A stretch of DNA of 64,000 nucleotides from an uncultured Cohaesibacter sp. GTDB taxonomy: Bacteria; Pseudomonadota; Alphaproteobacteria; Rhizobiales; Cohaesibacteraceae. A model generated the notes under the pieces. It saw only the letters and a list, made by a program, of their open reading frames with translations, had not been told where the DNA came from and made no database searches. Of the stretch, positions 21,792 through 26,597 are shown piece by piece. A program made the translations under genes and the position numbers. The stretch spans positions 434,001-498,000 of the forward strand of contig NZ_OY781114.1 of assembly GCF_963676485.1 (NCBI RefSeq). Direction: 5' to 3'. Position 1 is the stretch's first letter; each line of letters begins with the position of its first letter.

Positions 21792-23519
21792 TTAGCCATG
21801 CATCGAGCGGCTTGATGTACGAGAGAGCAGAATAACAGGCACCAGCCCAACCGCTACAATCGTCAACGCTGCCAAAGCCCCCTTTTCGAAAGCCTCCAGC
21901 GACGCCTGCCCATATACCAGCGTGGCAAGCGTATCAAAATTGAAGGGACGTAACAGGATGGTTGCGGGCAGTTCCTTCATGACATCGACGAACACCAGCA
22001 AGGCACCGGATATCAACGAGGGGCGGATGAGGGGTAGATCAATCTCTACCAGCGTGCGCCAGGAAGAACGCCCCAAGGTTCGCGATGCAGCTTCCAGATT
22101 GGGCGATATGCGTTGCAGGCCCGTTTCCCCCGCCCCGTAAGACATGGCCATGAAGCGCACACAATAGGCATAGAGCATCGCAGCCCCGGAGCTGATCAGG
22201 ATGAGCCCCGTTGCCAGCCCGAACCAATCCCGCATGCTTGCAGCGATGAAATTGTCCAGCTGGGCGACCGGGATCAGAATACCAACCGCCAAAACGGTTC
22301 CGGGCACAGCATAACCGATAGCCGACAAACGCGTAACCGCACTGACAAAGGCACTCTTCTGTGTACGCGCAAAATAGGCCAGCGCCGTGCCGAGCAAAGC
22401 CGTCAGCACGGCAGCAACGCTCGCCAGAAAGAGCGAATTGCCCATGGCCGCCAGAAAATCGGCGTTGAGATTGTCGCGCCAATGAAAGAAGACCGAGCGC
22501 AAAAGAATGGAGGCAGGCAATAGAAAGCCCAAAATGATCGGCAAAGCGCAAGTCGTAAAGGCCAGCCATGCCCGCCAGCCTTCGAGGTGAAAACTGGGCA
22601 GAGCCTGATACCGCCGTGTCGTTGTCGAAAAACGCTGCTCACGTCGCCCGCGTCGCTCCAGCCACAAGAGCAACAGAACCACCAGCAACATAACGGTGGA
22701 GATTTGCGCAGCGCCCGCCAGACTGGCCCTGTTGAGCCATGTATCATAAACGCTGAAAGTCAGCGTCTTGACGCCGAAAAATTCCACCGCGCCGATATCG
22801 TTGAGGCATTCCATCAGGGCCAGCGTCACACCAACCACGATCGCCGGGCGGGCCAGTGGCAGAGCCACGGCAAAAAACAGGCGCAACGGTCCTGCCCCCA
22901 GCGTACGCGAGACATCCAGCGCGCAGGCCGATTGCATCAGAAAGGTGGCGCGCGTTGTCAGGAACACATATGGATAAAGCACAAAACTCATGACCAGAAT
23001 GCTGCCGGGCAGAGAGCGCACTTCGGGAAACCAATAGTCACGGGCACTCTCAAAGCCGAAGAGCCAGCGGATCAGGCTTTGAGCGGGGCCGGAATAGTCA
23101 AACAGATCCACCGCTGCATAGGCAACGATGTAGGTAGGGATGGCCAGCGGCATCAAGAGCGCCCATTGAAACAGCGCCCTTCCGGGGAAGCGGCACATAG
23201 TCACCAGCCAGGCAGTTGAAACACCGATCAGCATTGTGAGCCCGCCCACCCCGAGCATCAGCCACAGCGTTGTCATCACCGAACGCGGCAGAACGGTTGA
23301 TAACAGATGCGGCCAAACGTCACCGGCATCCCCAAAAGCAATCACGACAAGAGACAGGATTGGCGCAATCACCATGAGCAGGATAAGAACCAGCAGCATG
23401 AGAGCAAGCCACGACGCCCCCCCGGCGCGAGGCGAAGCCCAACCAGAAAGCCATCGCGTCAACAGCGATATCAGGCCTTTGGCAGTGATGGCGGACGCTG
23501 CGTCAGCTGGTTTGGTCAT
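21792..23519 (-). CDS. Iron(III)-type ABC transporter permease (fused two-domain)
   Basis: A 575-residue inner-membrane protein with about twelve hydrophobic segments, made of two binding-protein-dependent permease domains. Both EAA-type loops are visible: CALDVSRTLGAGPLRLFFAVALPLARPAIV in the first half and NLEAASRTLGRSSWRTLVEIDLPL in the second. This is the FbpB/AfuB arrangement of ferric-iron uptake systems. AGGA lies before the ATG. The matching binding protein is probably the gene at 25563-26597, but a plus-strand MFS gene lies between, and no ATPase gene is in the window, so the system is split. Confidence 0.9.
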   Translation of the reverse strand: MTKPADAASAITAKGLISLLTRWLSGWASPRAGGASWLALMLLVLILLMVIAPILSLVVIAFGDAGDVWPHLLSTVLPRSVMTTLWLMLGVGGLTMLIGVSTAWLVTMCRFPGRALFQWALLMPLAIPTYIVAYAAVDLFDYSGPAQSLIRWLFGFESARDYWFPEVRSLPGSILVMSFVLYPYVFLTTRATFLMQSACALDVSRTLGAGPLRLFFAVALPLARPAIVVGVTLALMECLNDIGAVEFFGVKTLTFSVYDTWLNRASLAGAAQISTVMLLVVLLLLWLERRGRREQRFSTTTRRYQALPSFHLEGWRAWLAFTTCALPIILGFLLPASILLRSVFFHWRDNLNADFLAAMGNSLFLASVAAVLTALLGTALAYFARTQKSAFVSAVTRLSAIGYAVPGTVLAVGILIPVAQLDNFIAASMRDWFGLATGLILISSGAAMLYAYCVRFMAMSYGAGETGLQRISPNLEAASRTLGRSSWRTLVEIDLPLIRPSLISGALLVFVDVMKELPATILLRPFNFDTLATLVYGQASLEAFEKGALAALTIVAVGLVPVILLSRTSSRSMHG

Positions 23520-23812: not shown

Positions 23813-25030
23813 TTGGGCCATGTGATCCTGCTAGTGTCCATTGTCATGCCCAATCAATATCTCGTGCTCATTCTGGTGTTCGTCGGCTCCTTTTCCAATG
23901 CGGCAACCGTGCCCTTTATGGGCTTGTTCATTATCGAAGATTTGCAGAAGTCTCCCATGATGATCAGCCTCTATTCACTGGTGGCCACTGTGCTTGCGGT
24001 CGCGGCAAACCGCTTTGTCGGCAAAAAGATCGATCAGGGCTGGGATATCCGCAAGCTGCTGCTGGCCTCCATTCTCTGCTATCTGGCAGCCATGAGTTCG
24101 CTGGTGGTGGTTACGAGCTATTGGACCCTGGTAACAATCTTCGCAGCCTGTCTCGCCATTGCCAACTCGGCCATTGGAACGATCCTGAGCTTTGCCCGCT
24201 TCTATTCCGAGCAATCCCATCTGGATTTCGCCAAGTTCAATTCCCGTGTGCGTGCCGTGGTGTCGTTGGCTTGGATGATTGCACCTGCGCTCTGCTTCGC
24301 TCTGGCCGGTGTCTACGGCCACATGATTGTGTTTGAATTGGCCGTCGCCATTGGCTGCGTCTGGCTTTTTGTGTGGAGCATCACGCTCAAGCAACCGTTT
24401 CGCCGCACCTATCCGGCCGATGCGGTTTCCACGGCTGCCAGCGCGGAAGCGACAAGCCATTTCAACTTCCCGCTCTGGGCAGCCACGGTCGCATGCTTTT
24501 TCATTGCGCTTGGCAATTCGCTGGCCCTGTCTTCAGCTCCGCTCTTCATGATCAAGGAAGTGCATTTGCCAGACTATGCGCCGGGCCTGTCGATCACGGT
24601 GAAATGCTTTTTTGAAGTTGTGGTCATTCTGGGCACGCCAGGCTTGTTGAAAAAGATGGGCGTGCGCAATGCCATGATCCTGGCAAGCCTGCTGGCTGTT
24701 ATCTGCTACAGCTATCTCTCTACGATCAGCTCGCTCACTGAAATGTCCATTGCAGCTGCCATTGAAGGCACCTATTTCGGTATTTTCGCAGCAGTCAGCA
24801 TCACCTTCATGCAGTCCTTTGCACGTGGCTTCATTGGCAATGCGATGGCGCTTTACACCAACTCCATGTTTCTTTCGGGGCTGGTTGGCGGCTCGCTGAT
24901 GGGGATCATTGCCAGCTATTCAGACTATCGCACCGCAGTGCTATCCGCCTCGCTCGCAGCCGTTGCCGGCATCATCACGCTGGTTGCCACGCGCCGCACC
25001 GATGCCGAAGCCGAAGAGTTACCCGCCTGA
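23813..25030 (+). CDS. MFS transporter, sugar-efflux-like
   Basis: About 405 residues with some twelve hydrophobic segments in two halves, and a cytosolic middle loop around residues 205-225. The general pattern resembles the SET-type sugar efflux branch of the major facilitator superfamily, but the substrate cannot be told by eye. The frame opens with TTG at 23813; an ATG at 23846 (MPNQYLVLIL) is the more conventional start and neither has a strong ribosome-binding site. It interrupts the iron ABC genes on the opposite strand. Confidence 0.8.
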   Translation: MGHVILLVSIVMPNQYLVLILVFVGSFSNAATVPFMGLFIIEDLQKSPMMISLYSLVATVLAVAANRFVGKKIDQGWDIRKLLLASILCYLAAMSSLVVVTSYWTLVTIFAACLAIANSAIGTILSFARFYSEQSHLDFAKFNSRVRAVVSLAWMIAPALCFALAGVYGHMIVFELAVAIGCVWLFVWSITLKQPFRRTYPADAVSTAASAEATSHFNFPLWAATVACFFIALGNSLALSSAPLFMIKEVHLPDYAPGLSITVKCFFEVVVILGTPGLLKKMGVRNAMILASLLAVICYSYLSTISSLTEMSIAAAIEGTYFGIFAAVSITFMQSFARGFIGNAMALYTNSMFLSGLVGGSLMGIIASYSDYRTAVLSASLAAVAGIITLVATRRTDAEAEELPA

Positions 25031-25090
25031 TCCCAGATCAAGGGAACCGGCAAGGGCGCGATTGCATCGCATCGAGGCGAAAGCTTTCCA

Positions 25091-25130
25091 AAAACAAGAG
25101 TGCCACGACGGAAGAAACCGTCGTGGCACT
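25091..25130 (-). terminator. Strong intrinsic terminator, minus strand
   Basis: A perfect 13-bp hairpin: arms at 25099-25111 and 25118-25130 around a six-base loop. Read on minus, the right arm is followed by CTTGTTTTT, a T-tract; on plus the following bases are TGCCATA. It therefore ends a minus-strand transcript coming from the hairpin locus or from the binding protein gene further upstream. Confidence 0.8.
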
Positions 25131-25450
25131 TGCCATAAAGCGTCAATCGACCTGGATGGAGAATGCGGAAAGGGACCAGCTTTCCACATAAGTTTAGCCG
25201 ATTGCTTTTATGTACCGTCCCACATTCTTGTCTTTCCGGGATAAACCCGGTAAGCATAAGATTGTTCAATTGATGACGCGTCATAACAAAGGGACCAGCT
25301 TTGTTATAATGCCACCTATGCAGGACCGCTAGGGGATACGCTCTTTGCAGACAAGAATGCGAGAGGACCAGTATCGCATTCATCATCTACCAAGCGCTTT
25401 ATTGGCGAAGGCTCACTCCAAGGACAAAGCTGCAGGACCAGTACAGCTCA
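25091..25450 (-). ncRNA. Structured RNA locus with five hairpins sharing a CUGGUCC loop
   Basis: On the minus strand, hairpins at 25448-25428, 25381-25355, 25333-25315, 25307-25283 and 25188-25164 have unrelated stems but the same loop: CUGGUCC in four, GGUCCU in the third. Stems run 5 to 9 base pairs. Two C-A mismatches on plus (25433/25443 and 25166/25186) become G-U pairs on minus, and the only T-tract of the closing terminator is on minus. An extra CCGGG hairpin lies at 25236-25250, and 25223-25233 is a perfect complement of 25349-25359. It may be a free small RNA or the 3' untranslated region of the iron-binding protein gene, whose stop at 25563 has no terminator of its own. I cannot match it to a known class. 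Confidence 0.7.
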
Positions 25451-25562
25451 CCTTGTTTTGCTGAGAAATCAGGCTCGCTCCCCTTCTACCAATTCGGGAA
25501 ATTCAGTTCTCCTTGAAAATGTCTGTTCTATTGAAACGGCTACCTGTCTTGCTGGCAAACGC

Positions 25563-26597
25563 CTAGTTTGCCCCTGCATCGAAATCGACGATATCGACCA
25601 GTTCAGACGCCTTTTTGCGTGCATCGGCAATCTTGGACAGTTCAATCGAATCCGGGGTAAAGCTGCCCCAACTCTTGACCTGCTCTGATGGTTCCACGCC
25701 TTCCTTGACCGGATATTCGAAGTTGCCCTTTGCATATATCTGCTGGGCTTCATCCGAAGACAGAAATTCCATCAGCTTGACGGCGCTTTCACGGTTGGGC
25801 GCGTGCTGGGTTAGCAACATGCCCGAAATATTGACATGGGTGCCGCGACCATCGCTGTTTGGAAAGAGAATGCGGACCGACTTTGCCCATTCCTTCTGCT
25901 CAGGCTCTTTGTCATTGGTCTGCATCTTGCCCATATAATAGGTGTTGCCAAGCGCGATATCGCACTCACCGGCATAGACCGCCTTAACCTGAGCCCGATC
26001 ATTACCCGTCGGGCGGCGGGCCAGATTGGCCTTGACGCCTTCGAGCCATGTCTTGGTTTCCTCGACACCGTGATGCACGATCATCGAGGCGATCAAACCG
26101 ATGGTGTAGTCATGCTGGCCGGAGCGGGTGCAGATACGGCCCTTCCATTTCGGGTCAGCCAGCTCTTCATAGGTGATGCTGTCCTGCTTGACGCGCTCTT
26201 TAGAGGCATAGACAACGCGGGCTCGCGATGTCAGACCGAACCATTGATTGTCCCCATCGCGGAAATGGGCCGGAATGTTGGCCTTCAGGGTGTCCGAGAT
26301 CACGGGCTGCGCTATCCCCTGTTGGGTTGCAGCCTGAAGGCGTCCAACATCTGTGCTCAGCAGCAGATCGGCAGGAGAATGTTCCCCTTCTGCCTTAATG
26401 CGCGTCTCAAGACCCTTTTTGGCAAAGATCAGATTTGTGCGGATGCCGGTTTCCTTGGTGAAAGCCTCAAGCAGAGGCTCGATCAGAAATGGCTGCCGGT
26501 AGGAGTAGATATTGACTTCTTCTGCAGCAAAGCTCACGCTCGCAGACGATACCATGAGTGCGGCGACGCACACCGTCGCACGGAAGGACTGTTTCAT
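25563..26597 (-). CDS. Iron(III) ABC transporter substrate-binding protein
   Basis: A 344-residue periplasmic binding protein of the FutA/IdiA/AfuA group. The signal peptide covers residues 1-21 (cleavage after SFA, before AEEVNIYSYRQ). The iron-ligand region is visible: YSYRQPFLIEPLLEAFTKETG near the N terminus and the paired tyrosines in LGNTYYMGKM. It delivers ferric iron to a permease such as that at 21792-23519. GGAGATAGAA precedes the ATG at 26597; the upstream ATG at 26621 lacks this. No terminator lies just after its stop, so its transcript may run through the hairpin locus to 25091. Confidence 0.92.
   Translation of the reverse strand: MKQSFRATVCVAALMVSSASVSFAAEEVNIYSYRQPFLIEPLLEAFTKETGIRTNLIFAKKGLETRIKAEGEHSPADLLLSTDVGRLQAATQQGIAQPVISDTLKANIPAHFRDGDNQWFGLTSRARVVYASKERVKQDSITYEELADPKWKGRICTRSGQHDYTIGLIASMIVHHGVEETKTWLEGVKANLARRPTGNDRAQVKAVYAGECDIALGNTYYMGKMQTNDKEPEQKEWAKSVRILFPNSDGRGTHVNISGMLLTQHAPNRESAVKLMEFLSSDEAQQIYAKGNFEYPVKEGVEPSEQVKSWGSFTPDSIELSKIADARKKASELVDIVDFDAGAN

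Follow-up and report, generated by a model that had tools for sequence, protein, structure and literature searches.

A conserved four-armed RNA with identical YUGGUCCY loops downstream of the iron-binding protein gene fbpA in Cohaesibacter

Does a seven-base loop that recurs on several stems behind an iron-uptake gene belong to an RNA, and to what kind of RNA? We analysed a 64,000-nucleotide stretch of an uncultured Cohaesibacter sp. (contig NZ_OY781114.1; hereafter the window), in which an earlier note had described minus-strand hairpins closing the loop CUGGUCC. Four such loops were found as described, at 25441-25435, 25371-25365, 25298-25292 and 25179-25173, each closed by a stem. By itself, the heptamer CTGGTCC is not enriched in the 64-kb window (9 copies against 6.7 expected, a count that 22 of 100 shuffles equal or exceed). 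When only 7-mers closed by a hairpin were counted, the real 478-nt region held four copies of one of them. Among 2000 shuffles of this region, 1946 had no repeated hairpin-closed 7-mer, 54 had one that occurred twice and none had one more than twice. With the same measure, 3 of 1060 slices taken from anywhere in the window reached four and 6 reached three. The unusual feature is the clustering of the heptamer in hairpin loops, not its frequency.

The RNA to which these hairpins would belong occupies 25090-25494 on the minus strand, with presumed ends at a conserved AAUUGG and at the U-tract of a terminator; it is supported by a 13-locus alignment and by matches to a model of its core in 18/18 genomes of the genus. 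From AAUUGG to the U-tract, its estimated size ranges from about 310 nt in the shortest array to 405 nt in the window. It is predicted to consist of four domains, the limits of which were set by eye, each carrying one of the loops listed above (H1 to H4 in that order). Domain A (25401-25494, minus), drawn from helix 2 and from the folds of the arrays L096, L011 and L007, is a closing stem AUUGG..CCAAU with an extension and bears arm H1 (25427-25449, minus), whose 8-bp stem (helix 4) has 7/8 pairs changed on both sides. Domain B (25338-25397, minus; helices 5-7) is a GCGC-closed arm bearing H2 (25355-25381, minus), in which an 8-bp stem presents the heptamer within an 11-nt loop, UACUGGUCCUC. 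In domain C (25215-25329, minus; helices 8-11), a long-range stem GGUCCUGCAU..AUGUGGGAC surrounds H3 (25281-25309, minus; stem 11 bp) and a side hairpin, and domain D (25134-25212, minus; helices 12-13) is a stem bearing H4 (25163-25189, minus; stem 10 bp). The RNA closes with an intrinsic terminator (25090-25130, minus; hairpin 25130-25099), formed by GUGCCACGACGG..CCGUCGUGGCAC and the U-tract that had been noticed on this strand; 6/13 pairs of its hairpin (helix 14) are changed on both sides. A fifth hairpin, at 25333-25315, had been counted with the others and does not belong to the array: its GGUCC forms the 5' side of the long-range stem of domain C and is not conserved (AGUCC in L010 and L011, AAUCC in L096 and L097).

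We assessed this structure by folding and by covariation. Compared with its shuffles, the 478-nt region is more stably folded on both strands (z -4.70 on minus, -4.37 on plus), so that folding energy does not decide the strand. Diverged arrays share the domain plan of the window in their predicted folds (L096, L011 and L007), and the array of L096 is only 48% identical to that of the window. Alignment of 13 of the 18 arrays gave a consensus of 112 pairs in 14 helices, with 87.2% of cells paired. Changes on both sides were found in 57 of the 112 pairs, against 18-25 in slid controls, and none of 500 shuffles reached any of five measures; the 13 sequences of this test had also served to derive the consensus, and kinship among them inflates the double-change counts. 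For the H2-H3 core alone, 14/27 pairs were doubly changed, which 1 of 500 shuffles reached. These compensatory changes beyond chance identify the locus, on comparative grounds, as a structured non-coding RNA. A protein-coding repeat was not apparent: when each strand of each array was taken separately, its longest ATG frame measured 16 to 106 aa, and in L001 no frame is open across the repeats in a stretch from H1 to H3 with 150 nt on each side. Between groups of genomes, the predicted stems change and the loop is constant. The statement that the stems differ completely is inexact: H3 and H4 share AAAG/CUUU beside the loop in 8/18 genomes, the window among them. Next to the loop, at least 5 contiguous bp are present in 61/72 arms; the 11/72 with fewer than 5 include H2 of L096 and of L120.

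The minus strand is the probable sense strand, because the terminator U-tract lies on it, fbpA lies upstream in the same direction, and G-U cells outnumber A-C cells in the consensus pairs of the aligned arrays (149 vs 45), the C-A mismatches of the plus strand becoming G-U on minus as the note had remarked. The gene fbpA (25563-26597, minus; the frame is open back to 26621 and the start at 26597 was chosen) encodes the periplasmic iron-binding protein of an ABC importer: its product matches Pfam solute-binding families and has 1q35 (iron binding protein FbpA) as its best solved relative (E 5.3e-110), and an NCBIfam search of it gave nothing above the cut-offs. The position behind an iron-binding protein gene, seen first in the window, recurs in 18/18 genomes (the window and 17 loci), with fbpA always upstream on the same strand. 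In the 16 of 18 loci that were measured, the fbpA stop and the conserved AAUUGG are separated by 22-114 nt of poorly conserved spacer. No sigma-70-like promoter match was found on minus in 25050-25800, and the RNA ends in a same-strand intrinsic terminator whose hairpin is conserved with covariation in 13 loci. In L123 and L121, which belong to a divergent group, GC-rich hairpins with no clear U-tract are seen by eye between the fbpA stop and the RNA; these might be sites of processing or of partial termination.

Downstream, the next importer gene on the same strand is an fbpB-like double permease (21792-23519, minus), named by its position and by Pfam BPD_transp_1. An opposite-strand MFS gene (23813-25030, plus), itself outside the RNA, separates the latter from fbpB in the window and in 10/18 genomes overall, so that the importer genes are split in these genomes. 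In 7/18 genomes, the RNA lies between fbpA and the fbpB-like gene with no MFS match between them, and in 1/18 the fbpB-like gene follows 2.7 kb after H1, the stretch before it falling outside the MFS tally. The arrangement in the seven genomes, between substrate-binding and permease genes, speaks for a cis element of the fbp operon that stabilises the 3' end of fbpA mRNA and lowers fbpB, possibly bound by an iron-sensing protein. By position, the closest analogue would be the iron-responsive element (IRE) between the iron-importer genes feuA and feuB of Bacillus subtilis, likewise a structured element, which aconitase binds in vitro according to the excerpt of PMC7430163. In that excerpt, the feuA-feuB element is a single IRE with an AGU loop, the only one among the B. 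subtilis IRE sites to have AGU; the Cohaesibacter RNA has four YUGGUCCY arms and no AGU in its loop. Four identical loops would also be superfluous for a stabiliser or terminator, and the RNA is kept where the MFS gene (10 genomes) or another stretch (1) parts it from fbpB. We consider a cis-acting element unlikely.

The distribution of the RNA was examined by several searches. A DNA search gave matches in 11/61 genomes, all of the window's genus, and the array was confirmed in the records of two named species, Cohaesibacter marisflavi (L054) and C. haloalkalitolerans (L088). The motif pattern alone found 13/18 Cohaesibacter genomes (reversed control, 0). A covariance-model search of related genomes, as the note had proposed, recovered all 18/18 with a model (R1) built from the H2-H3 core (weakest E 1.6e-4); the five genomes missed by the pattern carry complete arrays in which some loops are UUGGUCC. 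Outside the genus, the core model left no match standing among 397 genomes sampled from the order, after removal of one false match with no motif in another genus (G308, E 0.0027), and gave none in a sample of 385 genomes of the class; both searches were run with stricter filters, which lose weak matches. A putative second copy in the window's own genome (G000:C1:1789042, E 0.053) has no motif, and a second weak match in G012 (E 0.46) falls within that genome's own array. An order-wide pattern search matched 18/18 Cohaesibacter genomes and 4 others, with a reversed control matching in 4 genomes; judged from their matches, the 4 others are coding or tandem repeats. Among named genomes, 9 of the 80 listed matches (84 in total) passed a lenient hairpin filter, and in each of the 7 non-Cohaesibacter stretches among these at least one frame is open across the repeats. 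Viral contigs gave at least 120 matching stretches; among the matches listed, 13/120 passed the filter and 13/13 of these have an open frame. The filter is crude, since only 12/18 Cohaesibacter arrays pass it at three loops. Another contig, of Halomonas nitroreducens (L034), carries CTGGTCC at a near-constant spacing of 61 bases, resembling a tandem or CRISPR-like array.

Within the genus, four loop-bearing arms are present in each of the 18 genomes, and UGGUCC is held by 72/72 loops. The first loop position is C in 63/72 (CUGGUCC) and U in 9/72 (UUGGUCC), and the heptamer is directly followed by U 45 times and by C 27 times among the 72, giving YUGGUCCY. Across the 18 arrays, H1 and H2 are spaced by 67-80 and H2 and H3 by 71-76; the H3-H4 spacing is 56-58 in L121-L124, in which domain C is shortened with all four arms kept, and 111-120 in the remaining genomes. 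Neither of the two findings that would have spoken against the array was made: the loops are conserved in related genomes and compensatory changes are present. Comparison of the loci thus shows a predicted structured RNA gene or 3'UTR of about 310-405 nt behind fbpA, with four YUGGUCCY arms and an intrinsic terminator, in 18/18 Cohaesibacter genomes searched, and suggests a regulatory role for it.

An fbpA relative was present in 13 of 14 searched genomes outside the genus, and none of the 13 has an array after the fbpA stop (a single TTGGTCC stands in L333). In 9/13, the fbpB match starts 59-248 nt past the fbpA stop, the match leaving out part of the N-terminus; the gap is 470 in G018, of the same family, and 660 in G020, and L322 and L334 show no fbpB match downstream of fbpA, the sequence of L322 ending early. 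We infer an origin of the RNA at the base of the genus Cohaesibacter, in the interval between fbpA and fbpB. At the fbpA-fbpB junction of a sister genus (L323, G018), an inverted repeat CTATGGGAAA...TTTCCCATAG with no loop motif is visible by eye.

The RNA does not match a family in Rfam. Rfam 15 gave 0 families at the gathering threshold over the whole window; when 3 loci were searched leniently against Rfam, 7 matches below threshold appeared, of which the one over the array pairs its terminator with ctRNA_pGA1 (36.3 of 45 bits). A literature search on the loop heptamer returned no bacterial RNA by title among the matches listed, and in the limited collection searched we found no description of the Cohaesibacter RNA and nothing joining Cohaesibacter with small RNA. 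Two tRNA-related explanations were rejected. Pairing of UGGUCC with a tRNA 3' end through GGACCA yielded 2 genome pattern matches, neither tRNA-like by eye, and 2 in the reversed control; mimicry of the tRNA-Thr anticodon loop, which we take YU-GGU-CC to resemble, is misfitted by the wider H2 loops.

What do the loops bind? We tentatively prefer, at somewhat under an even chance, a four-armed RNA derived from the 3'UTR whose YUNR-type loops pair with RNAs bearing GGACCA. The RNA would be made as the 3' end of fbpA mRNA and then released by processing, the terminator would stop most transcripts from continuing towards the permease gene, and the product would act in trans. Each YUNR (here YUGG) loop would expose GGUCC to RNAs with GGACC(A/G)(G), so that one molecule would offer four equivalent seeds; the alternation of C and U at the first loop position fits both pairing with G and the YUNR form. 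The YUNR rule reportedly originates in a 1999 paper. In the excerpt of PMC6562991, YUNR is a possible U-turn scaffold through which RNAs could make rapid contact. The RNA has four loops in 18/18 genomes, accessible in the predicted structure, which would serve as redundant recognition sites, and the calculated duplex of the loop with GGACCAG is worth -11.3 kcal/mol. Since the RNA would rise with the iron-uptake operon, its likeliest role would be iron-sparing or a balancing of uptake. Against the pairing reading, a length of about 400 nt with four domains is large for an sRNA of this kind, and fewer than 5 contiguous bp adjoin the loop in the 11/72 arms mentioned above.

Known RNAs offer partial parallels to a pairing RNA. 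The LhrC family of Listeria likewise has several redundant mRNA recognition sites in one RNA; as far as the excerpt of PMC4132741 goes, these are three CU-rich UCCC sites, which lie in loops and in single-stranded stretches, in five homologues, whereas the Cohaesibacter RNA has four loops of a different motif, one locus found per genome and candidate targets only. FsrA, the iron-sparing sRNA of B. subtilis, resembles it in a proposed link to iron limitation and a C-containing pairing motif (excerpts of PMC7430163 and PMC4132741) and differs in being 84 nt long and Fur-controlled, the iron link of the Cohaesibacter RNA being a proposed one. UTR-derived sRNAs of Rhodobacter sphaeroides are also alphaproteobacterial and come from mRNA 3' ends (excerpt of PMC8625941); for Cohaesibacter such an origin is proposed from position, the processing step being presumed.

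We searched for targets of pairing near the starts of 1301 ORFs, about a third of the genome, a sample too small to reveal a small regulon. Between -25 and 0, GGACCAG occurred 3 times (permutation mean 2.80; 58/210 permutations higher), GGACCA 10 times (mean 8.49; 23/90 higher) and GGACCGG once (mean 2.18; 55/105 higher), none of the three being enriched; between -40 and +10, GGACCAG occurred 3 times, below its mean of 4.49. AGGACCA was somewhat frequent at -25 to 0 (6 vs a mean of 2.59; 15/210 higher), and a smaller sample had given 2 GGACCAG vs 1.04. Near 380 ORF starts, 8 GGACC(A/G)G sites were found, and 3 of them, with GGACCAG close before the start, were traced in orthologues. Before the gene for a TtrB-like 4Fe-4S subunit, GGACCA stands at -9 from the start codon in 9/9 orthologues found in 18 genomes, and GGACCAG in 7/9. 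The sequence before the ATG reads GAAAGGACCAGCC (L129:16420-16445; G000:C1:356420-356445), and upstream of GGACCA it diverges among orthologues. The site overlaps the likely Shine-Dalgarno sequence, which alone could explain its conservation; this mRNA start is a lead, not a target. For DctM, GGACCAG is present in 7/8 close orthologues and by eye is the end of the preceding coding frame. For MutY it is at that place in 4/18; L293 has GGACCAG just past an ATG and three genomes have a second GGACC farther upstream. The array flanks share no GGACC(A/G)G site across the 18 genomes, the recurrent ones being confined to subsets.

Nearly as likely as the pairing reading, and still doubtful, is an array of the CsrB/RsmZ kind, in which a putative RNA-binding protein would recognise the YUGGUCCY hairpin loops and the arms would titrate it or tether it on the fbp transcript. 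Loop bases that stay fixed while the stems covary, and four arms in 18/18 genomes, speak for such an array. The plan is similar in RsmZ, for which the excerpt of PMC4005645 describes four stem-loops and a terminator; like the Cohaesibacter RNA, these protein-sequestering RNAs have several stem-loops with a shared motif. RsmZ, at 127 nt in that excerpt, is about a third as long as the Cohaesibacter RNA, which has four motifs per genome (18 genomes) and lies behind fbpA. GGA, the core of CsrA/RsmE sites, occurs in 0/72 loops; the motif is a different one, as the note had remarked. Single YUGGUCC hairpins, which might mark the target mRNAs of such a protein, are not enriched near the starts or ends of the 1301 ORFs: 3 were found near starts and 3 near ends, two of each being arms of the RNA itself, and among 90 permuted motifs 6 and 16, respectively, gave more; the test covered about a third of the genome and was too small to reveal a small regulon. 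The original proposal of a repeated site for a protein or a base-pairing partner accordingly stands in part: 72/72 loops, the covariation and the position behind fbpA fit it, the tests for a regulon in about a third of the genome gave no clear enrichment, and the fifth hairpin lies outside the array.

The loop is also nearly self-complementary (GGUCC-GGUCC around a U-U mismatch), and identical loops would let any arm pair with any other, so that the arms might kiss within or between molecules. The calculated loop-loop duplex is only -3.1 kcal/mol, against -11.3 for the true complement, and kissing alone should permit compensating loop changes, of which there were 0 in 72 loops. We regard self-assembly as very improbable.

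The pairing reading and the protein array can be joined in a broader proposal, to which we give an even chance: a genus-specific class of four-valent regulatory RNA, not described before, that arose at the base of the genus within an operon for iron uptake and is made with the mRNA of the iron-binding protein. Its four identical YUGGUCCY loops would capture one partner, either a new protein that binds the loop or a set of RNAs bearing GGACC, and expression of iron uptake would thereby set the free amount of that partner. The RNA is a multi-site RNA of a known sort, but its motif and setting are new. Few RNAs repeat one loop on varying stems, and those known best belong to global regulators (CsrA/RsmE); the Cohaesibacter array has a different motif, in four copies per genome (18 examined), and a fixed place behind the gene for an importer's iron-binding protein. 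Finding its partner could reveal, in Alphaproteobacteria, either an RNA-binding protein or a pairing regulon that is new. The RNA also offers a case for how such RNAs arise: it was found in a single genus, and in 9/13 relatives fbpA and an fbpB-like gene are close neighbours with no such RNA.

One further observation concerns the foot of domain A. AATTGG is present before H1 in 18/18 genomes, and AAUUGG (25494-25489 in the window) and its partner CCAAU (25405-25401) are strongly conserved in sequence beyond what their pairing requires, which suggests an additional role for this part of the RNA.
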